Shown here: positions 3,000-14,620 of the stretch, piece by piece
How the letters are laid out: the number at the start of each line of letters is the position of its first letter
How positions within the stretch are numbered: the first letter of the stretch is position 1
The notes under the pieces: generated by a model
The model's input: the letters and a program-made list of their open reading frames with translations, nothing else
Told to the model about the DNA's origin: nothing
Database searches by the model: none
Translations under genes and position numbers: made by a program
Assembly: GCF_022884085.1 (NCBI RefSeq)
Contig: NZ_JAGGCS010000006.1
Span: 225,531 to 289,530 of the forward strand
DNA: 64,000 nt
Reading direction: 5' to 3'
Source of the DNA: Paenirhizobium cremeum
Lineage (GTDB): Bacteria > Pseudomonadota > Alphaproteobacteria > Rhizobiales > Rhizobiaceae

Positions 3000-3401
3000 T
3001 CAGCGCCTTCCCGGATGCAGAAGGAAGAGGGGCCTGCCGTAGTCGGCAAGCGTGCCGTCCTCGATCAGTCGTTCGGTCAAAATACCGTCCCGAGGCGCGA
3101 GCACGGGACGTAACAGCATGCCTATCTGCAGAAAACCGATGATTTCGCCTTCCCGCACGTGCCGTGGTAACTCGACCGGTTGCGGTGAGACGGGATGTGC
3201 CGAACGGAAGATGCCGATATGGGGTGACCCGATTTCGATCGGTGCGGGGAGCGGTAAAGTTTCGGCGGGTCGAGCGGGCGTTGCTTCGCTTATCCGGCCG
3301 TTGCCGGCGATGATATGCCTTGTCTCGTCCTCGTATTCGAATTCGGCGATGTCGTATCGTTCGAGAAGTCTAAGGACGGCCTCAAGCCATGCGTCGCTCA
3401 T
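3000..3401 (-). CDS. BCCP-like protein lacking the biotinylated lysine
   Basis: A 133-residue protein, last in the pxpA-BCCP-BC operon. It overlaps the stop of the biotin carboxylase gene by 4 bp, so it is probably translationally coupled. It resembles the biotin carrier encoded upstream: an N-terminal helix with a D-x-x-E-F-E-Y strand, a proline-rich linker, then a biotinyl/lipoyl-like barrel. At the biotin hairpin, the neighbour's [12 protein letters not shown] is here [12 protein letters not shown], so the modified lysine is Met/Leu and the domain cannot carry biotin. The PV-x-AP and G-x-L framework is kept, so it is not decaying at random. A structural or scaffolding role in the carboxylase complex is inference. 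Confidence 0.75.
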
Positions 3402-4759
3402 CGGCTCTTTCTCCCGAAACCCTCGGCGAGCAGGCGTTCGAGGTGATGGATGTCGAAGCCGCCATGTATGATGCCCGGTTCACCGAGAAGCGCCTGATGG
3501 AGCGCAATCGTTGTCTCCGGTCCGGCGATGACCGTTTCATTCAGCGCGCGCCGCATGCGGGCAAGCGCGACTTCGCGTGTTGGACCATGGGCGATCAGCT
3601 TGGCGATGAGCGAATCGTAATGGGGCGGGATCGTGTAGCCGGGATAGAGATGCGTATCCATTCGGATTCCAGGCCCGCCGGGCGCGATGAAGCGGGACAC
3701 CTCGGCTGGAGAGGGCGTGAAGGTGAAGGGATGTTCGGCATTGATCCGGCATTCGATGGCATGGCCGGAGAAAGCAACGTCCTCCTGTTTCACCTTTAGC
3801 GGTTCGCCCATCGCGATCTTCAGTTGTTCACGCACGATGTCGATGCCGGTGATTTCCTCCGTCACCGGATGCTCGACCTGAACCCGCGTATTCATCTCGA
3901 TGAAGTAAAACGAACCGTTCTCGTAAAGGAACTCGAAGGTTCCCGCTCCGCGATAACCGATGGCAAGACAAGCCTCGGCGCAGCGCCTGCCTATGCTGTC
4001 GATGGTCTCGGATGCGATGCCGGGAGGGGGCGCTTCCTCGATCAGTTTCTGGTGTCGGCGCTGGGTAGAGCAGTCGCGCGCGCCGAGATGGATCGCATGG
4101 CCGTGGGCATCGGCAAGCACCTGGATCTCCACATGGCGCGGAAATTCGAGGAAACGCTCGAGATAGACTTCCGGATTGCCGAAGGCGCGCCCGGCTTCCT
4201 CCCGTGCCATCTGTACCGCTGCGGCAAGCGCCGTTGGTTCGCGCACGATGCGCATGCCGCGCCCGCCGCCGCCGCCCGATGCCTTGACGATCAGCGGATA
4301 GCCGACTTCATCGCCGATTGCCGCGATGGCTTCCGGATCGTCCGGCAGGCTGCTGTCCGGTCCGGGCACGCAAGGCACGCCGGCTGCAATCATTGCACGC
4401 TTGGCCGCTACTTTGTCGCCCATCATGCGGATCGCGTCGGCAGGCGGTCCGACAAAGGCGAGCCCTTCCGCCTCGACCATTGCTGCGAAGCGGGCGTTCT
4501 CCGAGAGAAAGCCATAGCCGGGATGGATGGCTCCGGCGCTGGTCAACCTTGCCGCAAGCAGGATCTCATCGATGTCGAGATAGCTGCGGGCGGCCGGAGC
4601 CGGCCCGATACAGAGCGCCTGATCGGCGAGCTGTACGTGGCGCAGCTCCCGGTCGGCCTCGGAATGGATGGCGATGGTCCTGAGGCCAAGGTCGCGGCAG
4701 GCTCGGAGAATGCGCAGGGCGATTTCCCCGCGATTGGCGATCAGGACGCTGTCGAACAT
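3398..4759 (-). CDS. Biotin carboxylase subunit (AccC-type) of the pxp-linked carboxylase
   Basis: A 453-residue ATP-grasp enzyme, the normal length for AccC. It carboxylates carrier-bound biotin with bicarbonate and ATP. Visible are the N-terminal Rossmann-like start ([16 protein letters not shown]), the glycine-rich ATP lid [14 protein letters not shown], and the signature [14 protein letters not shown]. It sits 4 bp after the biotin carrier gene and overlaps the degenerate carrier gene. No AccA/AccD or acyl-CoA carboxyltransferase is nearby, while pxpABC genes flank it, so an accessory, non-fatty-acid carboxylase is likelier than the housekeeping acetyl-CoA carboxylase. Plain AccC duplication remains possible. 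Confidence 0.93.
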
Positions 4760-4763
4760 CGCC

Positions 4764-5225
4764 TCAGTCCGTCAGCAAAGTGATGAGAGGTGTCCCGGCT
4801 GTCACCGGCTGCCCGTCCTCGACGAGGATAGGGCCTATACGACCGGCAATGGGGGCCTCGACCGGATTGAGCATCTTCATCGCCTCGATGAGCGCAAGTG
4901 TCTGGCCTTCTTCGATCAGATCGCCTTCCCGGGCATAGGGGTCGGCGCCCGGCGCCGGTGCGCGGTAGAAGGTGCCGGGCAGGCCGGCGACCACGACCGT
5001 TTCGACGCTGCTTTCGACCTCCGGCAGAGCAAGCAGCGAAGCGATTTCGGCAGCGGCCATTGCTTCCGGCGTTTCGCTTCGCGCCGAGGCCGGAACGACC
5101 GATGCCCCGTTCCGGCCCGAGGTTTTGGAAAGGCGGATGCGCATGCCCGCCTCAGAAACCTCCAACTCGTTCAGCGTCGAATCCTGCAGCATTTCCATAA
5201 GTTTGGCGATAACGGCCAGATCCAT
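4764..5225 (-). CDS. Biotin carboxyl carrier protein (AccB-type) of the pxp-linked carboxylase
   Basis: A 153-residue carrier with an AccB-like N-terminal helix (about 1-30), an Ala/Pro-rich linker, and a C-terminal biotinyl domain with the intact modification site [15 protein letters not shown]. The lysine in AMKM would be biotinylated. It lies 9 bp after pxpA and 4 bp before the biotin carboxylase gene, so all are probably made from one transcript. It would shuttle carboxybiotin to a carboxyltransferase; in this locus the only candidates are the PxpB/PxpC pair encoded divergently. Confidence 0.92.
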
Positions 5226-5234
5226 GCGATGTCC

Positions 5235-5999
5235 TCAGCGCAGGAAGTTGCGGATGGTGATGCCGGCATCTTCGAGCCCGGCGCGCACGCGTGCCGCAAT
5301 CCCGACGGCGGACGGCGTGTCGCTGTGGACGCAGATGGAATCGATCGGCGTAACGATCGCCCGGCCGGTGATGGTCTCGATCGCGCCGTTCCTGACCATG
5401 CGCACCACCCGTTCCGCAGCGGTAGCAGCATCATGAATGACCGCTCCCGGCTTGCTGCGATGAACGAGGAAGCCTTCATCGGTATAAGCGCGGTCGGCGA
5501 AGATCTCGGAACGACAGGCAAGTCCCATCTCCCGCGCCAGCCGCTCCTGATGGCCGAGCGCGATGGTGAGGCAAACAAGCTTCGGATCGACCGCCTTGAT
5601 CGCATTGTTGACGGCCCGCGCGACGCTTTCGTCCTGCTGGGTCAGGTTGCCGAGTGCGCCATGGGCTTTCACATGAGTAATCGGGTGACCGACATAGGTT
5701 GCAAGCGCCTGTGCCGCGCCAATCTGGTAGGCGACGAGCCGTTCGATTTCTCCAGCCGAAAAGGGAATATTGCGCCGGCCAAAACCCCAGAGATCGGGAA
5801 AGCCGGGATGGGCGCCGACCGCCACGCCCTTTTCCTTCGCCAGAGCAAAAGTCTGCGCCATGATTTCGGGATCGCCGGCATGCAGGCCGCAGGCTATGTT
5901 GGCGGAACTGACGATCGACAGCATTGCCGCGTCGTCACCCATCCTGTAGGCGCCGAAGCCTTCGCCCATGTCTGAGTTGAGATCGACGCTGAGGCTCAT
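5235..5999 (-). CDS. pxpA: 5-oxoprolinase subunit A (LamB/YcsF family)
   Basis: A 254-residue cytoplasmic protein of the LamB/YcsF family, the usual length. It starts with the family signature VDLNSDMGEGFGAY and continues with SSANIACGLHAGDP and VGAHPGFPD. PxpA acts with PxpB and PxpC to hydrolyse 5-oxo-L-proline to glutamate with ATP. It is the first gene of a minus-strand operon with the biotin carrier and biotin carboxylase, and divergent from pxpB. Splitting the three pxp genes over two divergent operons with a carboxylase module is not the simple pxpBCA layout of Bacillus or E. coli. Confidence 0.9.
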   Translation of the reverse strand: MSLSVDLNSDMGEGFGAYRMGDDAAMLSIVSSANIACGLHAGDPEIMAQTFALAKEKGVAVGAHPGFPDLWGFGRRNIPFSAGEIERLVAYQIGAAQALATYVGHPITHVKAHGALGNLTQQDESVARAVNNAIKAVDPKLVCLTIALGHQERLAREMGLACRSEIFADRAYTDEGFLVHRSKPGAVIHDAATAAERVVRMVRNGAIETITGRAIVTPIDSICVHSDTPSAVGIAARVRAGLEDAGITIRNFLR

Positions 6000-6099
6000 G
6001 TCCTTGCTCCGTGTGTTCGGTCCTTGCCAATTCTAAGGGGAGCTTCGGGGAACAGACAATGGCGGCCGCGAAGAAATGCTTGGGGTCTCCACAGGCTTC

Positions 6100-6109
6100 T
6101 GATATATCA
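6100..6109. promoter_or_regulatory. Palindrome TGATATATCA in the pxpA/pxpB divergent promoter region
   Basis: A perfect 10-bp palindrome lies 17 bp before the pxpB start, in the 127-bp gap between the divergent pxpA and pxpB operons. Its position suits an operator for a dimeric regulator, for example of the GntR type, covering both operons. No second copy was noticed nearby. Confidence 0.35.
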
Positions 6110-6126
6110 CATCTGGCGAGGTTATC

Positions 6127-6807
6127 ATGACGGGCAGTATGAATGAGCAGGACGGCAATCCGAGAGTGAACGCGGAAGGCGCCGGTTCCCTCTTGCTCGA
6201 TGTTGCCGGCCCTGTCTTCGATCAGTCGAAGCAGGAGCGCATCTGGACGCTTGCGGAAGCCCTCAAGGGGCTTCCCGGCGTTCTTGAAACGGCGCCGGGC
6301 ATGAACAATCTCATGGTCGTTTTCGATCCCTTGCGACTTGATCCGGACGTGCTTCAGACGAAGCTTCTCGCCGCATGGGAAAAGGCCGAGGCCGGTCACT
6401 CGAGGGGCCGTCTCGTTGAAATTCCCGTTATCTATGGTGGGTCGGGCGGCGCGGATCTCGAGGAGGTCGCGGGTGTCAAGGGAATGACGCCGAAGGAACT
6501 GGTGAAGTTGCATGCCGCTCCGGTCTATTCGGTGGCTGCCGTGGGCGCGATGCCCGGCTTTGTCTATCTTTCCGGCCTCGATCCAAAGCTCGCAATCCCG
6601 CGGCGAGCGGTGCCGCGTATGGGTGTTCCCGAGGGTTCGGTGATTATCGGCGGTGCCCAGGCCGGCATCATGCCGCTCACGGCGCCGTCCGGCTGGCATA
6701 TTCTCGGCCACACCGACTTCCGTCTTTTCGATGCGTTCCGTGAACAGCCGGCGGCGCTCCGCCCGGGGGACAAGATCCGCTTTGTGCCCACGGAGGTCAT
6801 CGCATGA
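6127..6807 (+). CDS. pxpB: 5-oxoprolinase subunit B (KipI family)
   Basis: A 226-residue protein of the KipI/PxpB family. Recognisable pieces are an N-terminal alpha/beta part, then the cyclophilin-like part with LVEIPVIYGG, GAMPGFVYLSG, PRRAVPRMGVPEGSV and GIMPLTAPSGWHILG. It pairs with PxpC; together they resemble the carboxyltransferase domain of urea carboxylase. The start has GAGG 6 bases upstream. Its stop overlaps the pxpC start by 4 bp (ATGA at 6804-6807). The first 20 residues are an extra, probably flexible, extension. Confidence 0.9.
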   Translation: MTGSMNEQDGNPRVNAEGAGSLLLDVAGPVFDQSKQERIWTLAEALKGLPGVLETAPGMNNLMVVFDPLRLDPDVLQTKLLAAWEKAEAGHSRGRLVEIPVIYGGSGGADLEEVAGVKGMTPKELVKLHAAPVYSVAAVGAMPGFVYLSGLDPKLAIPRRAVPRMGVPEGSVIIGGAQAGIMPLTAPSGWHILGHTDFRLFDAFREQPAALRPGDKIRFVPTEVIA

Positions 6808-7808
6808 TCGAGATATTGACGACAGGCGTTGCCAACAGCGTACAGGATCTCGGCCGTTTCGGTTATCTCGAGGCTGGCGTTTCGCGTTCCGGCGCGATGG
6901 ATGGGCCGGCGCTCGAAACCGCGAACCTCCTGCTTGGCAATCGGCCGGAGGCCGCGGGACTGGAGATTGCAGTTTTCCCGTTCCGCGCCCGCTTCGATTC
7001 TTCAACTCTAATTGCCGTGACCGGTGCGGATTGCCCGGTATCGCTCGGCGGCAGGATCTATCCGAGCTGGTGGGTTCAGGAGGCTCGCGCTGGCGACGTC
7101 CTGGAGCTTGGCCTGCCGCGTTTCGGTGCGCGCGCCTATATCGGCTTTTCCGGGGGGATCTCCGTCCCTCCCGTGCTCGGCTCCGCCTCCACCGACATCA
7201 AGAGCGGCTGGGGTGGCTTCGGGGGCAGGGGCCTTCGGCGTGGTGACAGGCTGAAGCTTTCCCCTGGCACTTCAGTCCTTGCCAATCTGCCGGGTGGCTT
7301 TGGTCTCGATCCGGCCGAGATAAGGCTCAATGCCTCGGGAGGCGATGCGATCCGGGTTATCGCCGGCGCCGAACATCCGGTTTTCGATCCCGCTTCGCTT
7401 TCGGCTTTCGAAGCCGCGCCATGGCGGGTAACGGACGAGGCCAACCGTCAAGGCTACCGTCTTGCCGGTCCCGAACTGAAGCTGACCCGCCGTCTCGAAC
7501 TTCTCTCTCACGGCATCATGCCCGGCACGATCCAGGTGCCGCCATCCGGACAGCCGATCATACAGCTCGCCGAAGCGAATACCTGCGGCGGCTACCCGAA
7601 GATCGCGCATGTCATCGAGGCCGATCTCTGGCGCCTGGGGCAGGCGCCGGTCGGAACCGAACTGCGTTTCACCATCGTGAACCGCCACGAAGCGGTTGAA
7701 GCCTTGAAGCGCCAGCGGAGAGCGCTCGCGCGCGTGGCGGACGAAGCCGCGCTTGCCCGCCGGGACGCGACACGCCACCGGAGGACGGTCGGTCGTACGG
7801 CGGAATGA
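6804..7808 (+). CDS. pxpC: 5-oxoprolinase subunit C (KipA family)
   Basis: A 334-residue protein of the KipA/PxpC family. It opens with the family start IEILTTGVANSVQDLGR, followed by GYLEAGVSRSGAMD and NLLLGN, and has the later motif GQPIIQLAEANTCGGYPKI, which matches the substrate-site region of urea carboxylase carboxyltransferases. It is coupled to pxpB by ATGA and followed 26 bp later by the racemase-family gene. The Arg/Ala-rich tail (last about 35 residues) is probably disordered. Lactam substrate is inferred from family knowledge. Confidence 0.9.
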   Translation: MIEILTTGVANSVQDLGRFGYLEAGVSRSGAMDGPALETANLLLGNRPEAAGLEIAVFPFRARFDSSTLIAVTGADCPVSLGGRIYPSWWVQEARAGDVLELGLPRFGARAYIGFSGGISVPPVLGSASTDIKSGWGGFGGRGLRRGDRLKLSPGTSVLANLPGGFGLDPAEIRLNASGGDAIRVIAGAEHPVFDPASLSAFEAAPWRVTDEANRQGYRLAGPELKLTRRLELLSHGIMPGTIQVPPSGQPIIQLAEANTCGGYPKIAHVIEADLWRLGQAPVGTELRFTIVNRHEAVEALKRQRRALARVADEAALARRDATRHRRTVGRTAE

Positions 7809-7834
7809 ACCCTTTTGATTAACGGAGCAATCTC

Positions 7835-8875
7835 ATGAGATGGAAACGGACCCTTCAGCTTCTCGACGTGCATGCGGAAGGTGAGATCGGCAAGGTGGCG
7901 ATCGGAGGCGTGCCGAAGGTCCCGGGCGAGACGATTGCCGAGCAATTGCACTGGCTGAACACTGATCCCAAGGGCCAGGAACTGCGCCGCATGCTCGTGT
8001 TGGAGCCGCGCGGCGCGCCGATCGGTTCCGTCAATCTGCTGCTGCCGGCGAAGAACCCGAAGGCCGATGCAGGGTTTGTGATCCTGCAGCCTGACCAGGC
8101 CCACGCGAGCTCCGGTTCCAATTCCATCTGCGTCACCACCGCCTTGCTGGAAAGTGGCATCGTCGAAATGCAGGAGCCCGAGACGATCATCATGCTGGAT
8201 ACGGCCGCCGGACTCGTCCGGGCGACGGCCACCTGCCGGGACGGCCGCTGCGAGCGGGTGAGGCTCACCATGGTTCCCTCCTTCGTGCATGAACTCGACG
8301 TCGGTATCGATACCGCCGAATGGGGGCGAATCACCTTCGACCTGAGCTATGGCGGTATCTTCTATGCGCTTGTCGATGTCGGCCAGATCGGCCTCACGAT
8401 TGAAAAGGCCAATGCACGCGGTCTTGTCGAAGCGGGCATGATCCTCAAGGAGCAGATCAACCGAGCGATCCCGGTCGTGCATCCGGAAATTCCGGCCATC
8501 TCCGGTGTGGCCTACGTAATGTTCCGGGACGTCGATCCCGATGGCGCGATTCGCACCTGCACCACCATGTGGCCGGGGCGCGTGGATCGTTCTCCATGCG
8601 GAACGGGCAACTCCGCCAATCTCGCGACGCTCTATGCCCGCGGCAAGGTCAAGGTCGGGGACACCTTCAAGTCCCGCTCCATCATCGGTTCGGAATTCGA
8701 GGTAGGGCTTGATTCGGTTGCCGAGGTGGCTGGGCAGACAGCCGTGATCCCGACGATCAGCGGGCGCGGCTTCACCTTCGGATTGCATCAGGTTGCGCTC
8801 GATCCATTCGATCCGCTCGGGAACGGCTTTGCCCTGACCGATGTCTGGGGACCCTCCGCCGGGTCCATAGGCTAG
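7835..8875 (+). CDS. Proline racemase family enzyme with a Ser/Cys catalytic pair (4-hydroxyproline epimerase-like)
   Basis: A 346-residue enzyme of the PLP-independent proline racemase/4-hydroxyproline 2-epimerase/trans-3-hydroxyproline dehydratase family. The second catalytic motif is intact (DRSPCGTGNS, C255). At the first motif, where CGH is usual, it has SSGSN, giving Ser93. Ser/Cys pairs are known in some 4-hydroxyproline epimerases, and the Cys/Thr pair marks dehydratases, so epimerase-type chemistry is likelier. It is third in the plus-strand operon with pxpB and pxpC, linking proline- or hydroxyproline-like compounds to the lactam genes. The exact substrate cannot be read from sequence. 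Confidence 0.85.
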   Translation: MRWKRTLQLLDVHAEGEIGKVAIGGVPKVPGETIAEQLHWLNTDPKGQELRRMLVLEPRGAPIGSVNLLLPAKNPKADAGFVILQPDQAHASSGSNSICVTTALLESGIVEMQEPETIIMLDTAAGLVRATATCRDGRCERVRLTMVPSFVHELDVGIDTAEWGRITFDLSYGGIFYALVDVGQIGLTIEKANARGLVEAGMILKEQINRAIPVVHPEIPAISGVAYVMFRDVDPDGAIRTCTTMWPGRVDRSPCGTGNSANLATLYARGKVKVGDTFKSRSIIGSEFEVGLDSVAEVAGQTAVIPTISGRGFTFGLHQVALDPFDPLGNGFALTDVWGPSAGSIG

Positions 8876-9027
8876 AAAAGAAGAGAAGTTATCCTCGAAC
8901 AAAATTGGTAATAGTTCAGTAGGCTTCTTGTCGTCGCCCATCTTGCTATTGATGAAATGCAGGGAATATGTAGGAATTCCGCCCGCGCATCGCGTAAATT
9001 AGCAAGTATAATAAGTGGAACGCACAA

Positions 9028-9750
9028 TTGACGACAGGAGCCACCCTGCTGACAATCTCGCAAAGTTTGTCTTCTTTGCGTGGAGGCCCGATTTTTTCGA
9101 GTCTGACTGTGGAGGAGGACAGGGAGTGGTTGACGAAGTGCCACACCCGCAGCCTCTACGCCGGCGAAAGTCTCGTCGATTACGAGGATCTCACCAAGGA
9201 TGTATTTCTGGTGCAGAGCGGGGAGATGCGCGCGGTCTTGCGTTTCTCGGTTGGCAAGGAAGCTATTCTCGGGACGTTTCGGCGGGGCGACCTGATGGGC
9301 GAGCTGTCGGCGATCGACGATCTCTCCCGTTCGGCAAGCCTGATGGCGGTGACGGATGCGGTGGTAACCGTCATTCCCTATGCAGTTTTTCACGACATAT
9401 TGCGCACTTGCCCGGGCGTGACACGGGCATTGATGCAGCTCCTGTCTCTCCGCATCCGGGCCATGAACGAGCGGGTTTCGGAGCTTTCCTTCCTGGATAC
9501 CAAGCATAGGCTCTATAACGCCTTGCTGCGGCTCTCCCGTTCGCGCGGCGATGGCGGCGGCGAACGCATTATCTCGCCGCCGCTCGTGCATGCGGAGCTT
9601 GCCGAGCACATCGGTTCCAGTCGCGAGACGGTATCCCGCGAAATGTCCCGCCTGATCCGCGAGCAGCTGATCGAACGCACCAGCCGGGCGATCGTGCTGA
9701 AGAACCCCGTCGAGCTTTCGAGGCGGATTTCGAAGGCTCTGGAGGGCTAA
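9028..9750 (+). CDS. Crp/Fnr-family transcriptional regulator
   Basis: About 240 residues: an N-terminal cyclic-nucleotide-binding-like beta-roll (about 25-140, with GDLMGELSAIDD), a dimerisation helix, and a C-terminal winged helix with HAELAEHIGSSRETVSREM. There is no N-terminal Fnr-type cysteine cluster; cysteines occur singly at KCHTR and RTCPG. The start is uncertain: TTG at 9028 is used, but in-frame TTG codons at 9067 and 9076 are also possible, and AGGAG at 9036-9040 would favour a start after 9028. It follows the racemase gene by 152 bp and may or may not control the pxp locus. Confidence 0.85.
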   Translation: MTTGATLLTISQSLSSLRGGPIFSSLTVEEDREWLTKCHTRSLYAGESLVDYEDLTKDVFLVQSGEMRAVLRFSVGKEAILGTFRRGDLMGELSAIDDLSRSASLMAVTDAVVTVIPYAVFHDILRTCPGVTRALMQLLSLRIRAMNERVSELSFLDTKHRLYNALLRLSRSRGDGGGERIISPPLVHAELAEHIGSSRETVSREMSRLIREQLIERTSRAIVLKNPVELSRRISKALEG

Positions 9751-9756
9751 GCCCGC

Positions 9757-10185
9757 TCAGGGATAGATGACGCCCTTGCGCAGGATGACGTTGGCATAAA
9801 GCCGAGGTTCGCCCGTCTGGATGACCGCATGCGCCGCGCGTACGCGATCGTAGAAGGTAGCCCCCACCAGCGGCACGACATTCGTGTTGGGTTCGTGACG
9901 GGTGCAGCAGGCAATGATTTCCTGATGCACCGGATCGAGCCGCTGGGGGTCGGAACCCACTGTCGAGCGGAAGATTGCCTGTGGCACGAAGTCGTCGATA
10001 GGCAGCACACTGAGAACGGCGTTGAGCGCGGGAACCAACTGATGTCCGTCAAGGCGAACGAGGCGCCGTGCATGTTCCAGCGCCGGATAGTTGCCGTCGA
10101 CGATGGCGATCTCGTCGCCATGGCCCATGGCGCGCAGTGTCGCGAGCAGATCGGGGCTCAGAAGCGGGTCAATTCCCTTCAGCAT
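9757..10185 (-). CDS. RbsD/FucU-family sugar mutarotase
   Basis: A 142-residue protein with the family signature GHGDEIAIVDGNYP near residues 21-34, containing the catalytic-region histidine, and a C-terminal YANVILRKGVI strand. RbsD and FucU interconvert anomers or ring forms of ribose or fucose so the kinase receives the right form. Its start overlaps the end of frcR by 17 bp, so they are co-transcribed. Position beside the fructose transporter genes suggests a pyranose/furanose mutarotase for an imported ketose or ribose; that substrate is inference. Confidence 0.88.
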   Translation of the reverse strand: MLKGIDPLLSPDLLATLRAMGHGDEIAIVDGNYPALEHARRLVRLDGHQLVPALNAVLSVLPIDDFVPQAIFRSTVGSDPQRLDPVHQEIIACCTRHEPNTNVVPLVGATFYDRVRAAHAVIQTGEPRLYANVILRKGVIYP

Positions 10186-11419
10186 TGTCTATTTCCTTGA
10201 ACAGGACCGTCTGGTCGATGAGGTAACGGGCAAAGATCGGCAGGCTGGCGCCGCCGATGGCGCGGGCCTGGGGGCCGACGACGCCTTCTATGATATCGGG
10301 TGTGACGATCCCCTGCAGGTCGAGACGGTTGACTGCTGCGACCGTCGCCTTGACGAGGCGGGCGCGCACCCAGTCTGGAAAGCCGCCGTCGATGATCGCG
10401 GCCGAAAAGTCGATGATCGATACCGCCGCGACGATGGCCTGTGCCAGGGCGTCGGCGCTGTCCTGTATCCAGATTTCCAGCGGGTCCCCGAAATCGATCC
10501 ATTCCTCGGCCGCATACCAGAGAGGCTGCGGGTCGAGGCCGCGTTCGCGGAGCAGGTTTTCAAGGACGAAAATGGAGGCGATTTCCAACAACTGCCGGGT
10601 TTCGCCATGCTTGTTGCGCACGGGCAGGGGGGCAATCGCACCGGCTGTCCCGGTGCGCCCCACGAAGACCGACGAGTTCAGTACGATGCCGCCGCCGATG
10701 AACGAGCCGACATAGAAATAGATGAAGTCGGGATAGCGCGGGCCGGCGCCGAAGACGAGTTCCGCCCCGCATGCACTTGTCGCATCGTTCTGGAGATAGA
10801 CGGGATAGCTGATCCGCGCGGCGACTTCTGCCTGCAGGTCGAAGCCTCGCCAGGCGTCCATTGCGCCCTCGGGGGCGCCTACTTCCTCTGCCCAGTTCCA
10901 GAGTTCGAAGGGGGCGGCGATACCGACACCGGCGATGCTGTCTCTCTGAGCGGAGTGAATTGCAGCTTCGACTTCGGCAATTCCATCGCTGATGAAGGAA
11001 AGGATTTCCTCCGGATCCGGATAGCGATAGGTGCGATGGAGTTGCTTGCGGATCTTTCCGACAAAATCCATCAGCACGAGATCGGCGCTGCGTCGGCCGA
11101 TTTTCACGCCGAACGAGAAGACCGCCTCGGGGTTGAGATACATCGGTATCGAGGGCTGGCCCACCTTGCCGCGCATCGGTTCGCCGCGCATCAGCAGGCC
11201 GTCCTTTTCCAGTGCCCGCATGATGACCGAGACGGTTTGCGCGGAAAGACCGGTGCGCCTTGCGATATCGGCTTTTGAAAGTCCCAGGTGACGTCGCACG
11301 ACCGAAAGCACCAGTCGCTCGTTATAGGCGCGAACACGCACCTGATTAGCGCCGCCGCCGGTGCTGATCGGTTCGGGCGTGCGGGTCGGCGATGATGAAT
11401 TGTCGTGCGTCAGGGACAT
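10169..11419 (-). CDS. frcR: ROK-family repressor of the fructose transporter operon
   Basis: About 416 residues. The N-terminal winged helix (about 30-85) contains LSKADIARRTGLSAQTVSVIM, followed by a ROK sugar-binding domain with the conserved Asn-Asp in QNDATSACGAEL. The ATG at 11419 has a strong GAGAGGAG ribosome site and is preferred to the longer in-frame start at 11482. The usual ROK zinc motif (Cys-x-Cys-Gly-x-x-Gly-Cys) is missing: after GTAGAIAPLP the sequence runs RNKHGETRQLLEI. The gene is divergent from frcB with an inverted repeat between, as expected for an operon repressor responding to imported sugar. Confidence 0.85.
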   Translation of the reverse strand: MSLTHDNSSSPTRTPEPISTGGGANQVRVRAYNERLVLSVVRRHLGLSKADIARRTGLSAQTVSVIMRALEKDGLLMRGEPMRGKVGQPSIPMYLNPEAVFSFGVKIGRRSADLVLMDFVGKIRKQLHRTYRYPDPEEILSFISDGIAEVEAAIHSAQRDSIAGVGIAAPFELWNWAEEVGAPEGAMDAWRGFDLQAEVAARISYPVYLQNDATSACGAELVFGAGPRYPDFIYFYVGSFIGGGIVLNSSVFVGRTGTAGAIAPLPVRNKHGETRQLLEIASIFVLENLLRERGLDPQPLWYAAEEWIDFGDPLEIWIQDSADALAQAIVAAVSIIDFSAAIIDGGFPDWVRARLVKATVAAVNRLDLQGIVTPDIIEGVVGPQARAIGGASLPIFARYLIDQTVLFKEIDNAEGN

Positions 11420-11476
11420 GGCCGCTCCTCTCGACCCTCTCCTACCTTGAAGCAGCAGAGGGCGCCAGCATGTCAC

Positions 11477-11500
11477 ATCCAATTAATAATTCAATTGGAT
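11477..11500. promoter_or_regulatory. Candidate FrcR operator (8-bp inverted repeat)
   Basis: ATCCAATT and AATTGGAT form a perfect 8-bp inverted repeat with an 8-base AT-rich spacer, 58 bp upstream of frcR and just upstream of the -35 box of the frcB promoter. AT-rich dyads of this size are typical of ROK repressors. Confidence 0.6.
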
Positions 11501-11507
11501 TTATTTA

Positions 11508-11536
11508 TTGACGCTCGAATTTTCTGATGTTCTAAA
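11508..11536 (+). promoter_or_regulatory. Predicted housekeeping promoter of frcBCAK
   Basis: TTGACG at 11508-11513, a 17-base spacer and TCTAAA at 11531-11536 resemble a sigma-70-type promoter. It begins 8 bases after the candidate operator. A 5' leader of about 110 bases would precede frcB. Confidence 0.5.
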
Positions 11537-11653
11537 TGGCGACGTGGAGGAGCGGTACGGCCGAGAACGGCGTGCCCGACCGGGCAAATGGGTTTGCCCG
11601 GGCCGACATCTCGTGGCCGGAGGAGCCGGTCGAGTCTTTTTCGGGAGGAAAAT

Positions 11654-12679
11654 ATGAAAAAATCACTGATCGCAGCAGCCCTGTCCACGCTTGCTCTCGG
11701 CGTAGTCTTCGCCGCGCCGGCCAGCGCGGCCGACGTTTCCGCCTGCCTGATCACCAAGACGGATACCAACCCCTTCTTCGTGAAGATGAAGGAAGGTGCC
11801 ACCGCCAAGGCCAAGGAACTCGGCGTCACGCTGAAATCCTATGCCGGCAAGGTTGATGGCGACCATGACAGCCAGGTCGCGGCCATAGAATCCTGCATTG
11901 CAGACGGCGCGAAGGGTATCCTGCTCACCGCTTCCGATACCAAGGCCATCGTCGATCAGGTGAAGAAGGCGCAGGAAGCCGGTCTTCTGGTGATCGCGCT
12001 CGACACGCCGCTCGATCCGGCGGACGCAGCGGGCGCCACCTTTGCGACCGACAACCTTCTCGCCGGTAAGCTGATCGGCCAGTGGGCGGCAGCAACCCTC
12101 GGCGACAAGGCCAAGGATGCAAAGATTGGCTTCCTCGATCTCACTCCGTCCCAGCCGACCGTCGACGTTCTGCGCGACCAGGGCTTCATGATCGGCTTCG
12201 GCATCGATCCGAAGGACCCGAACAAGATCGGCGATGAAGACGATCCGCGCATCGTCGGCCATGACGTGACCAACGGCAACGAGGAAGGCGGCCGCAAGGC
12301 GATGGAAAACCTTCTCCAGAAGGACCCGGATATCAACGTCATTCACACGATCAACGAACCCGCTGCCGTCGGCGCCTACCAGGCTCTCAAGGCTGTGGGC
12401 AAGGAGAACGACGTCCTGATCGTGTCAGTCGACGGCGGGTGCCCGGGTGTCAAGTCTGTTGCTGCCGGCCAGATCGGCGCGACCTCGCAGCAATACCCGC
12501 TGCTGATGGCTTCGCTCGGCATCGAGGCGATTGCCAAGTATGCGAAGGACGGCACCAAGCCGCAGCCGACGCCCGGCAAGAGCTTCTTCGACACCGGCGT
12601 TTCGCTGGTGACCGACAAGCCGGCCCCTGGCGTGGAATCGATCGATACCAAGGTCGGCACGGAAAAGTGCTGGGGCTGA
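11654..12679 (+). CDS. frcB: Fructose ABC transporter, periplasmic binding protein
   Basis: A 341-residue type I periplasmic sugar-binding protein with a Sec signal peptide cleaved near residue 25 ([10 protein letters not shown]). The mature protein begins with the CUT2 pattern of a first strand followed by [14 protein letters not shown], and has VIALDTPLD and [16 protein letters not shown] regions typical of fructose/ribose binders. The ATG at 11654 has a perfect GGGAGGAA upstream. It is the first gene of frcBCAK, which imports fructose (and probably mannose and ribose, from work on the Sinorhizobium homologue). Confidence 0.92.
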
Positions 12680-12779
12680 TCGGCTGATCGATAACACCAC
12701 GACATCATGAAGAAGGGGCGGTGTAGGCCGCCCTTTCCGAAGGTGCAACGCACCTGTCCTATGGGATGGAGACACGTCC

Positions 12780-13838
12780 ATGGCAAGCATCCAGGAATTC
12801 GAGAAGGTTCTTGAAAAGAGCGACACGTCCGTTGCCGCGTTCGAGGATCATTCGCCCCTTCGCAGGATCCAGCATTTCCTGCATTCCACGCCGGCCGCAG
12901 TGCCGCTGATCGTGCTGATCGCATCGATCGTCATTTTCGGTCTGGCCATCGGCGGCAAATTCTTCTCCAGCTACACCCTCACCCTGATCCTTCAGCAGAT
13001 CGCGGTGGTGGGCATTCTCGGCGCGGCCCAGACCCTCGTGATCCTGACAGCCGGCATCGATCTGTCGATCGGCGTCGTCATGGTCATCTCGGCGGTGGTG
13101 ATGGGTAACTGCGCCCTGCATTATGGCATTCCCTCGCCAATCGCCGTCATCGTCGGGCTGGCGGTGGGCACGCTGTGCGGTCTCCTGAACGGGTTCCTGG
13201 TAGCCAAGATCAAGCTGCCGCCTTTCATCGTGACGCTTGGCACATGGAATATCGTCATGGCCACCAACTTCATCTATTCGGCCAACGAGACGTTGCGCGA
13301 TGCCGACATCGAGGCCATTGCGCCCTTCCTGCAGATCTTCGGCGAAAGCTTCCGGATCGGTAAGGCAGTGTTTACGCTCGGCGTCCTCTTCATGGTCCTC
13401 CTGGTCTTCGTGCTCTGGTATGCGCTCAATCATACCGCCTGGGGCCGACATCTCTATGCTGTCGGTGACGATCCGGAAGCGGCGCAGCTTGCCGGCATCC
13501 GTTCGGATCGTGTGCTGCTCGGCACCTATGCGCTGGCCGGGTTTATTGCAGCGCTTGCTGCCTGGGTTTCGATCGGCCGCAATGGTTCGATTTCTCCGTC
13601 CGCAGCCGTCACCGACTACAATCTTCAGGCGATAACGGCGGCGGTCATCGGTGGTATCTCGCTCTTCGGCGGGCGCGGTTCCATTCTCGGAACCTTGTTC
13701 GGCGCGCTGATCGTCGGTGTGGTGTCGATGGGTCTCAACATGCTTGGCGCCGATCCGCAATGGAAAGTGCTTCTGACCGGCGTCCTCATCATCTCGGCGG
13801 TTGCCGTCGACCAGTGGATCAGAAAGGTAGCAGGCTGA
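12780..13838 (+). CDS. frcC: Fructose ABC transporter, permease
   Basis: A 352-residue CUT2-type inner-membrane permease with about nine or ten hydrophobic segments. It has the family motif GIDLSIGVVM early, and the conserved cytoplasmic loop AVGDDPEAAQLAGIR that contacts the ATPase. The start has GGGATGGAG upstream. Its stop codon overlaps the frcA start by one base (TGATG at 13836-13840). Confidence 0.93.
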   Translation: MASIQEFEKVLEKSDTSVAAFEDHSPLRRIQHFLHSTPAAVPLIVLIASIVIFGLAIGGKFFSSYTLTLILQQIAVVGILGAAQTLVILTAGIDLSIGVVMVISAVVMGNCALHYGIPSPIAVIVGLAVGTLCGLLNGFLVAKIKLPPFIVTLGTWNIVMATNFIYSANETLRDADIEAIAPFLQIFGESFRIGKAVFTLGVLFMVLLVFVLWYALNHTAWGRHLYAVGDDPEAAQLAGIRSDRVLLGTYALAGFIAALAAWVSIGRNGSISPSAAVTDYNLQAITAAVIGGISLFGGRGSILGTLFGALIVGVVSMGLNMLGADPQWKVLLTGVLIISAVAVDQWIRKVAG

Positions 13839-14620
13839 TGGAACGCACCCCCATTCTTACCACCCGCGGTCTGGTCAAGCGTTATGGCCGTGTCACCGCT
13901 CTCGACAACGCCGATTTCGATCTCTACCCGGGCGAAATCCTCGCCGTGATCGGCGATAACGGCGCAGGCAAATCCTCGCTGATTAAGGCGATTTCCGGCG
14001 CCATCACGCCGGATGAAGGCGAGATCAGGCTGGACGGCAACCTCGTGAACTTCCGCAGTCCGATGGAGGCGCGCGACGCCGGCATCGAGACGGTTTACCA
14101 GAACCTCGCCCTCTCGCCGGCGCTTTCCATCGCCGACAACATGTTTCTCGGCCGCGAAATCCGCCGGCCGGGCATCATGGGATCGCTGTTCCGCACCCTG
14201 GACCGCAAGAAGATGGAAAAGGTCGCGCGCGACAAGCTTTCCGAACTCGGCCTGATGACCATCCAGAACATCAACCAGGCGGTGGAAACGCTTTCGGGCG
14301 GCCAGCGTCAGGGGGTTGCGGTTGCCCGCGCGGCGGCTTTCGGCTCCAAGGTTGTCATCATGGACGAACCGACAGCCGCACTCGGGGTCAAGGAATCCCG
14401 CCGCGTTCTCGAACTGATCCTGGAGGTCCGTTCGCGTGGACTGCCGATCGTGTTGATCTCGCATAACATGCCGCATGTGTTCGAGGTGGCCGACCGTATC
14501 CACATCCACCGTCTCGGACGGCGGCTCTGCGTCATCAACCCTAAGGACTATACGATGTCGGACGCCGTTGCCTTCATGACGGGCGCCCGTCCGGCGCCGG
14601 AAGAGAGCATCGCGGCATGA
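13838..14620 (+). CDS. frcA: Fructose ABC transporter, ATP-binding protein
   Basis: A 260-residue single ABC ATPase domain: Walker A GDNGAGKSS, signature LSGGQRQGVAVARA, Walker B VVIMDEPTAAL, and the switch histidine in VLISHNMPHVF. CUT2 sugar importers usually have one duplicated ATPase of about 500 residues; the single domain here must act as a homodimer, as in the known FrcA. An in-frame extension to 13760 lies inside frcC and is rejected. It overlaps frcK by ATGA. Confidence 0.93.
   Translation: MERTPILTTRGLVKRYGRVTALDNADFDLYPGEILAVIGDNGAGKSSLIKAISGAITPDEGEIRLDGNLVNFRSPMEARDAGIETVYQNLALSPALSIADNMFLGREIRRPGIMGSLFRTLDRKKMEKVARDKLSELGLMTIQNINQAVETLSGGQRQGVAVARAAAFGSKVVIMDEPTAALGVKESRRVLELILEVRSRGLPIVLISHNMPHVFEVADRIHIHRLGRRLCVINPKDYTMSDAVAFMTGARPAPEESIAA

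Follow-up and report, generated by a model that had tools for sequence, protein, structure and literature searches.

A gene cluster joining 5-oxoprolinase-type subunits to a biotin carboxylase and two carrier proteins in Paenirhizobium cremeum: a possible split, urea-carboxylase-like enzyme

Results

The cluster and its proteins

The window analysed here is a stretch of 64,000 nt from Paenirhizobium cremeum (GCF_022884085.1, NZ_JAGGCS010000006.1, positions 225,531 to 289,530, forward strand). At window positions 3000-8875, genes for a carrier-like protein (bcL), a biotin carboxylase (BC), a biotin carboxyl carrier protein (BCCP) and the hydrolase subunit PxpA lie on the minus strand and diverge from genes for PxpB, PxpC and a proline-racemase-like protein (PRF) on the plus strand. 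An earlier reading of the sequence (the original prediction) had described these two divergent sets, and scans of nine proteins against family models, which back the gene names used here, confirmed them. The tight spacing that it reported was borne out as well, with 4-bp overlaps and gaps of 4 and 9 bp, to which a gap of 26 bp can be added. The features are as follows.

3000..3401, minus strand: bcL, a BCCP paralogue of 133 aa with QIGML replacing EAMKM, so that the biotinyl lysine is missing; pseudo-carrier
3398..4759, minus strand: BC, AccC-like biotin carboxylase, 453 aa, with AccC-type motifs
4764..5225, minus strand: BCCP, biotin carboxyl carrier protein, 153 aa, biotin lysine K117 within EAMKM
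5235..5999, minus strand: PxpA, LamB/YcsF-family hydrolase subunit (family scan)
6000..6126, no strand: divergent intergenic region, 127 bp from PxpA to PxpB; both promoters presumably lie here
6127..6807, plus strand: PxpB, KipI-like, carboxyltransferase subdomains C/D (family scan)
6804..7808, plus strand: PxpC, KipA-like, carboxyltransferase subdomains A/B (family scan and predicted fold)
7835..8875, plus strand: PRF, proline-racemase-family enzyme with an epimerase-like Ser93/Cys255 pair (family scan and motif)

The AccC-type motifs found in BC are catalytic, and PxpA is the only LamB_YcsF match in the genome. PxpA and PxpB score above the curated cut-offs for 5-oxoprolinase (363.5 against 226 bits and 195.6 against 145.55 bits, respectively); PxpC stays below the 5-oxoprolinase equivalog cut-off NF045499 (297.2 against 500 bits) and matches the broader TIGR00724, and BCCP falls marginally under the acetyl-CoA carboxylase cut-off TIGR00531 (114.4 against 115.2 bits). 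All parts of a urea carboxylase, namely the BC domain, CT_A_B, CT_C_D and a biotinyl lysine, are present on separate proteins, none of which reaches the single-chain cut-off of TIGR02712 (1303.85 bits; BC 458.9, PxpC 163.7, BCCP 30.4, PxpB 23.7). The predicted fold of PxpC matches E. coli YbgK, with 42% identity in the structural alignment, and also the carboxyltransferase (CT) domain of urea carboxylase, and bcL is predicted to adopt the BCCP fold. No match to HyuA/HyuB-type subunits (the caprolactamase/oxoprolinase, OplAB family) was found among the nine proteins scanned.

Biotin carboxylases of the genome

There are six biotin carboxylase matches in the genome, including the BC of the locus. 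One of the others is paired with a BCCP as the housekeeping accBC on contig C30, whose AccA- and AccD-type partners we take to be those on C11 and C29; two adjoin Carboxyl_trans genes (C12, C33); and two lie inside frames of 1193 aa, that on C7 combining BC with a urea-carboxylase-type CT domain (CT_C_D) and a carrier end, and that on C29 being a presumed pyruvate carboxylase, judged by its frame length and carrier end. Thus each of these five can be assigned to a carboxyltransferase, and the BC of the locus is left over with only PxpB and PxpC beside it. The claim that AccA and AccD are absent from the locus held up: no AccA/AccD-type carboxyltransferase was found in the 20-kb stretch around it (L084), and the genome's four Carboxyl_trans genes are all on other contigs. 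Complementation of acetyl-CoA carboxylase by this BC and BCCP in a genome with no further accBC would have counted against the original prediction; a separate accBC is present on C30.

Distribution and architectures

The original prediction proposed looking in other genomes for BC and BCCP together with pxpABC and without accA or accD, and this association does recur. Within the family, 27 of 61 genomes carry a LamB/YcsF gene, and at 29 of the 39 PxpA places examined (of 40; one stretch was not fetched) the cluster includes BC, at L076 in two frames, while both carriers without BC occur at one place and neither BC nor carriers at nine. In 299 genomes sampled evenly across the phylum, such a gene occurs in 92, and the examination covered all of their 102 places; 23 of the clusters include BC, one of them as a fragment (L166), and these come from 22 of the 92 genomes. 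Four queries for acyl-CoA-type carboxyltransferases, run over 218 fetched stretches, found only one, in L120, beside a PxpABC set that lacks BC. Searches of viral contigs for bcL and for PxpC found neither.

Three architectures can be distinguished. In type 1, to which the P. cremeum cluster belongs, PxpA, PxpB and PxpC are accompanied by BC, bcL and a BCCP that is a protein of its own, about 150 aa long. Type 2 (for example L061 and L065; 16 of the 39 family places) has the very regular order PxpA-BCCP-BC-PxpB-PxpC, with an 80-aa BCCP and a 290-aa PxpB. In type 3, BC is fused to BCCP, and PxpB mostly to PxpC. Loci were sorted into types automatically, and three were then reassigned by hand: the housekeeping control L085 was removed, L166, whose BC is broken, was placed in type 2 and L204 in BC-less type 1; L210, L257 and L267 lie at contig edges and may look incomplete for that reason. 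The 80 named type-1 loci are the best 80 of at least 585 matches to a type-1 PxpC query, and since they are a best-scoring selection they show the make-up of type 1 and not its frequency; two of the names, L059 and L195, stand for a single locus. Broken or fragmented BC genes occur in otherwise recognisable clusters (L166, L245, L076), and Bradyrhizobium iriomotense (L244) has two PxpBC pairs round one PxpA, together with BCCP, BC and bcL.

In a PxpC tree (fasttree, 202 of the rows covering more than 80% of the profile, with long-branch warnings), rooted on the urea-carboxylase-type CT domain of the P. cremeum genome, BC-linked PxpC make up three lineages of differing architecture, with stand-alone ones between and among them. 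Type 2 is a clade of 20 rows (support 96); the 16 type-3 rows share a 17-row clade (support 99) with L050, which has no BC nearby; and type 1 lies within a clade of 89 rows (support 94), or 91 with two outlying rows (support 77), that is sister to the stand-alone clade holding E. coli PxpC (support 98 for both together). For BC, a quick LG+G4 tree, also with long-branch warnings and using 35 of the 67 type-1 rows (32 of these drawn at random), places 34 of the 35 in a clade of their own that excludes AccC (SH-aLRT 98).

The best single mark of type 1 is a Gln at E. coli PxpC position 245, present in 85 of 86 type-1 rows and in 5 of 79 stand-alone ones. In PxpA, Tyr110 (E. coli numbering) is replaced by Gly or Ala in 82 of 83 type-1 rows. 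This had hinted at a pocket in type-1 PxpA/PxpB larger than that of the E. coli-like 5-oxoprolinases, but the case is weakened by Gly, Ser or Ala at the Tyr110 position in 33 of 91 stand-alone PxpA rows.

The two carriers

Exactly one lysine-bearing and one lysine-less carrier are found in 78 of the 80 type-1 loci (with the one duplicate among them), over 10 complete gene orders, or 16 when BC-less and incomplete loci are included. Taking type-1, BC-less and bcL-only loci together, all 85 have exactly one carrier without the lysine (84 with another residue, one with a gap); in bcL of the window the residue is Met. In L204 a single 180-aa frame (8945-9484) encodes BCCP joined to the lysine-less carrier. 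bcL is probably a structural pseudo-carrier. A conserved carrier subunit that lacks the lysine would, to our knowledge, add a new kind of part to the biotin enzymes.

At ten distinct loci both carriers are present but the fetched stretch holds no BC. A search of six of the genomes concerned showed that in four the presumed AccC is the sole free single-domain BC, the others being multi-domain or acyl-CoA-type, which would make AccC the natural carboxyl donor for BC-less type-1 loci and BC a component that may be shared. The other two genomes have a further free BC, which in one of them (G003) adjoins a type-2 pxpA (L074).

Neighbouring genes and likely substrate

Neighbour families were built from mechanically called open reading frames, up to three per side, ignoring clusters that resemble reverse-strand frames. 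Recurrent neighbours of the 80 type-1 loci are LysR regulators (37), an aminotransferase (36; representative above the PRK06107 cut-off), SDR proteins (31) and an RraA-type aldolase (12; representative above the PRK09262 cut-off), none of which is among the frames counted on either side of the cluster in the window. The neighbours at a locus on a Mesorhizobium plasmid further include an Ldh-family oxidoreductase, a member of the epoxide hydrolase family, one of the proline racemase family and an FAD-binding oxidoreductase. Opening of the ring to give an amino acid, with a transaminase step and an aldol cleavage, would suit a 5-oxoproline that carries a hydroxyl or other substituent. Taken with PRF in the window, these neighbours make a substituted or proline-derived lactam of the 5-oxoproline type the most likely substrate. 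PRF has no NCBIfam match above cut-off. A Ser/Cys pair like its Ser93/Cys255 is given for a 4-hydroxyproline epimerase in a report whose legend numbers the Cys 236 (PMC4113996). The same motifs are found in eight other PRF rows (seven distinct), with Ser/Thr in L203 and only one motif found in L190 and L224. Judged by its residues, the pair favours a proline-like substrate without naming which one.

Three Gluconobacter type-1 clusters (L207, L212, L214) have HyuA/HyuB genes close by, whose relatives include caprolactamase and acetophenone carboxylase. Around the cluster in the window, a DUF900 alpha/beta hydrolase gene (1688-2995) converges on bcL, its neighbour cluster also including L189 (Ciceribacter naphthalenivorans) and L190. 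A CRP/FNR-type protein encoded downstream of PRF (9028-9750) is a possible regulator. ROK regulator and sugar ABC transporter genes follow at 10169-14620, and the remainder of the window, its frames judged by eye, resembles ordinary chromosome (pst, arg and pyr genes).

Discussion

We consider it somewhat better than an even bet, at a probability of roughly 0.55, that the locus encodes a split, urea-carboxylase-like multi-subunit biotin enzyme coupled to a ring-opening hydrolase, a reading for which we infer the chemical steps, the role of bcL and the substrate. BC would carboxylate biotin on BCCP with ATP and bicarbonate, and PxpB and PxpC, as a carboxyltransferase of the urea carboxylase kind, would pass the carboxyl group to a lactam, at its amide nitrogen (or oxygen). 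PxpA would then hydrolyse the activated ring and the resulting carbamate would release CO2, so that bicarbonate would act catalytically and ATP would pay for an uphill hydrolysis. The duplicated carrier without its lysine, bcL, probably aids assembly of BC, BCCP and PxpBC or fills a second carrier site. Caprolactamase makes such a scheme chemically plausible: opening of caprolactam is uphill and requires ATP, the enzyme also depends on bicarbonate, and its authors propose three mechanisms, among them carboxylation of the lactim (PMC8453981; this and other papers are cited for the passages available from them).

Several observations suggest this assignment: the linkage itself and its appearance in three lineages, the two carriers, the separate BC clade, the leftover BC of the genome, the BC-less loci, the L204 fusion, the caprolactamase precedent and PDB entry 9yx5, in which the PxpB/PxpC homologues MSMEG_0435-0436 of M. 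smegmatis are bound to an LCC complex that includes AccA3. Recurrence of the set across many bacteria suggests that an amide ring is opened after attachment of CO2. Of the split biotin machine advanced in the original prediction, the gene unit has proved real, conserved and wider than supposed; carboxyl transfer and substrate keep their conditional standing, and the locus does not fall within the urea carboxylase model.

A number of points weigh in the other direction. At 79 of the 102 PxpA places of the phylum sample there is no BC in the fetched stretch, and 5 of the 91 PxpC rows of the type-1 clade have no carrier in theirs (one being at a contig edge). A residue set separating BC-linked from stand-alone PxpB and PxpC was sought and none was found; the conserved residues of PxpA, PxpB and PxpC are identical with or without BC, so that sequence alone cannot tell which PxpB and PxpC transfer carboxyl groups. 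In print, PxpBC is assumed to phosphorylate 5-oxoproline directly with ATP (PMC13274462), the S. aureus operon of pxpBC, accBC and pxpA is read as fatty-acid plus amino-acid genes (PMC11315280), and an extra BC/BCCP copy and pxpBC in an L. pentosus genome are treated as separate findings (PMC12427679). The 9yx5 complex is titled acyl-CoA carboxylase, and the PxpBC pair there could thus be a regulator. Split UCT genes were noticed in 2011 by Lombard and Moreira, functional data being described as unavailable (PMC3199775), and in the available passages of the open-licence PMC literature we noticed no report of a biotin-dependent role for PxpABC.

On these grounds PxpABC might simply be an ordinary ATP-dependent 5-oxoprolinase, with BC, BCCP and bcL co-regulated and serving another reaction, for example with a carboxyltransferase encoded elsewhere. 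The shared residues and the carrier-less rows just described are what would be expected, and the pxpTABC genes of C. glutamicum, described without BC genes, are needed for growth on 5-oxoproline (PMC13274462), which does not imply independence from biotin proteins made elsewhere. Such an arrangement sits poorly with the linkage found in three lineages of the tree and in 10 complete gene orders, with the retention of BCCP even where BC is lost and with the finding that the single acyl-CoA-type carboxyltransferase of the 218 stretches stands beside a BC-less set; we regard it as unlikely, if a serious contender.

Carboxyl transfer could also take another form: activation might fall on the oxygen of the lactam, or the carboxylated compound might not be a lactam at all, with a later intermediate as the target of PxpA. 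The aminotransferase, SDR and RraA aldolase neighbours would suit another substrate, and carboxylation of the lactim oxygen is among the mechanisms proposed for caprolactamase (PMC8453981). We think this distinctly improbable, since PxpA, PxpB and PxpC are the trio named 5-oxoprolinase in print and urea carboxylase, with its related carboxyltransferase, is described as making allophanate. Allophanate is a product carboxylated on nitrogen.

It is a long shot, and one that would extend the biotin-dependent scheme, that all PxpABC enzymes began with lactam activation by carboxybiotin. Loci with a BC and BCCP of their own would then display this chemistry plainly, with an obligatory pseudo-carrier in type 1, and BC-less type-1 and 'stand-alone' PxpABC would borrow housekeeping AccC/AccB (or AccA3 in mycobacteria) in trans. 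KipI is a kinase inhibitor, a function with which a PDB molecule name agrees, and PxpB and PxpC could by analogy be regulators that bind a biotin carboxylase and tune its activity, much as the pair in 9yx5 is bound to an acyl-CoA carboxylase complex; the dedicated BC and BCCP that accompany the pair here, the lack of an acyl-CoA carboxyltransferase with them in the fetched stretches and the catabolic neighbours make this very improbable. That BC and BCCP form a second acetyl-CoA carboxylase half for lipid synthesis, as public annotation names them and as a list that places accB and accC of S. aureus with the fatty acid synthesis genes would imply (PMC11315280), is scarcely credible when the genome has separate accBC and AccA/AccD-type genes and this BC groups with other Pxp-linked BCs and not with AccC.

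If the split biotin enzyme is real, there are consequences beyond this locus. PxpB and PxpC have a carboxyltransferase fold, yet are assumed in print to phosphorylate a lactam, a mismatch that the use of carboxybiotin would explain. The acceptors that biotin carboxylases serve, namely acyl-CoAs, 2-oxo acids and urea, would be joined by a further class, and pxp-linked genes annotated as 'acetyl-CoA carboxylase' would be misnamed.

Among known systems, caprolactamase CapAB resembles the proposed enzyme in opening a lactam in dependence on ATP and bicarbonate, but belongs to another protein family, with an actin-like ATPase subunit and a Zn subunit, and biotin is not named in the available passages (PMC8453981). 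The S. aureus operon pxpBC-accBC-pxpA likewise unites BC, BCCP and PxpABC, in six genes, whereas in the corresponding passages bcL is not named and a joint function is not assigned (PMC11315280). In 9yx5 a PxpB/PxpC-type pair again occurs together with a BC-BCCP protein, although AccA3 also serves other carboxylases (PMC11001197) and no LamB/YcsF protein was matched in the entry. The PxpABC enzymes of E. coli, B. subtilis and C. glutamicum have all three subunits in common with the locus, which adds a dedicated BC, BCCP and bcL and has a PxpC in a clade of its own, under the 500-bit cut-off. Compared with urea carboxylase (K. lactis UC/UA; TIGR02712), the locus has its parts on separate subunits, an extra pseudo-carrier and PxpA alongside, and its substrate is probably not urea; judged by its anatomy, it would operate as a urea carboxylase in separate pieces that is joined to a lactamase.

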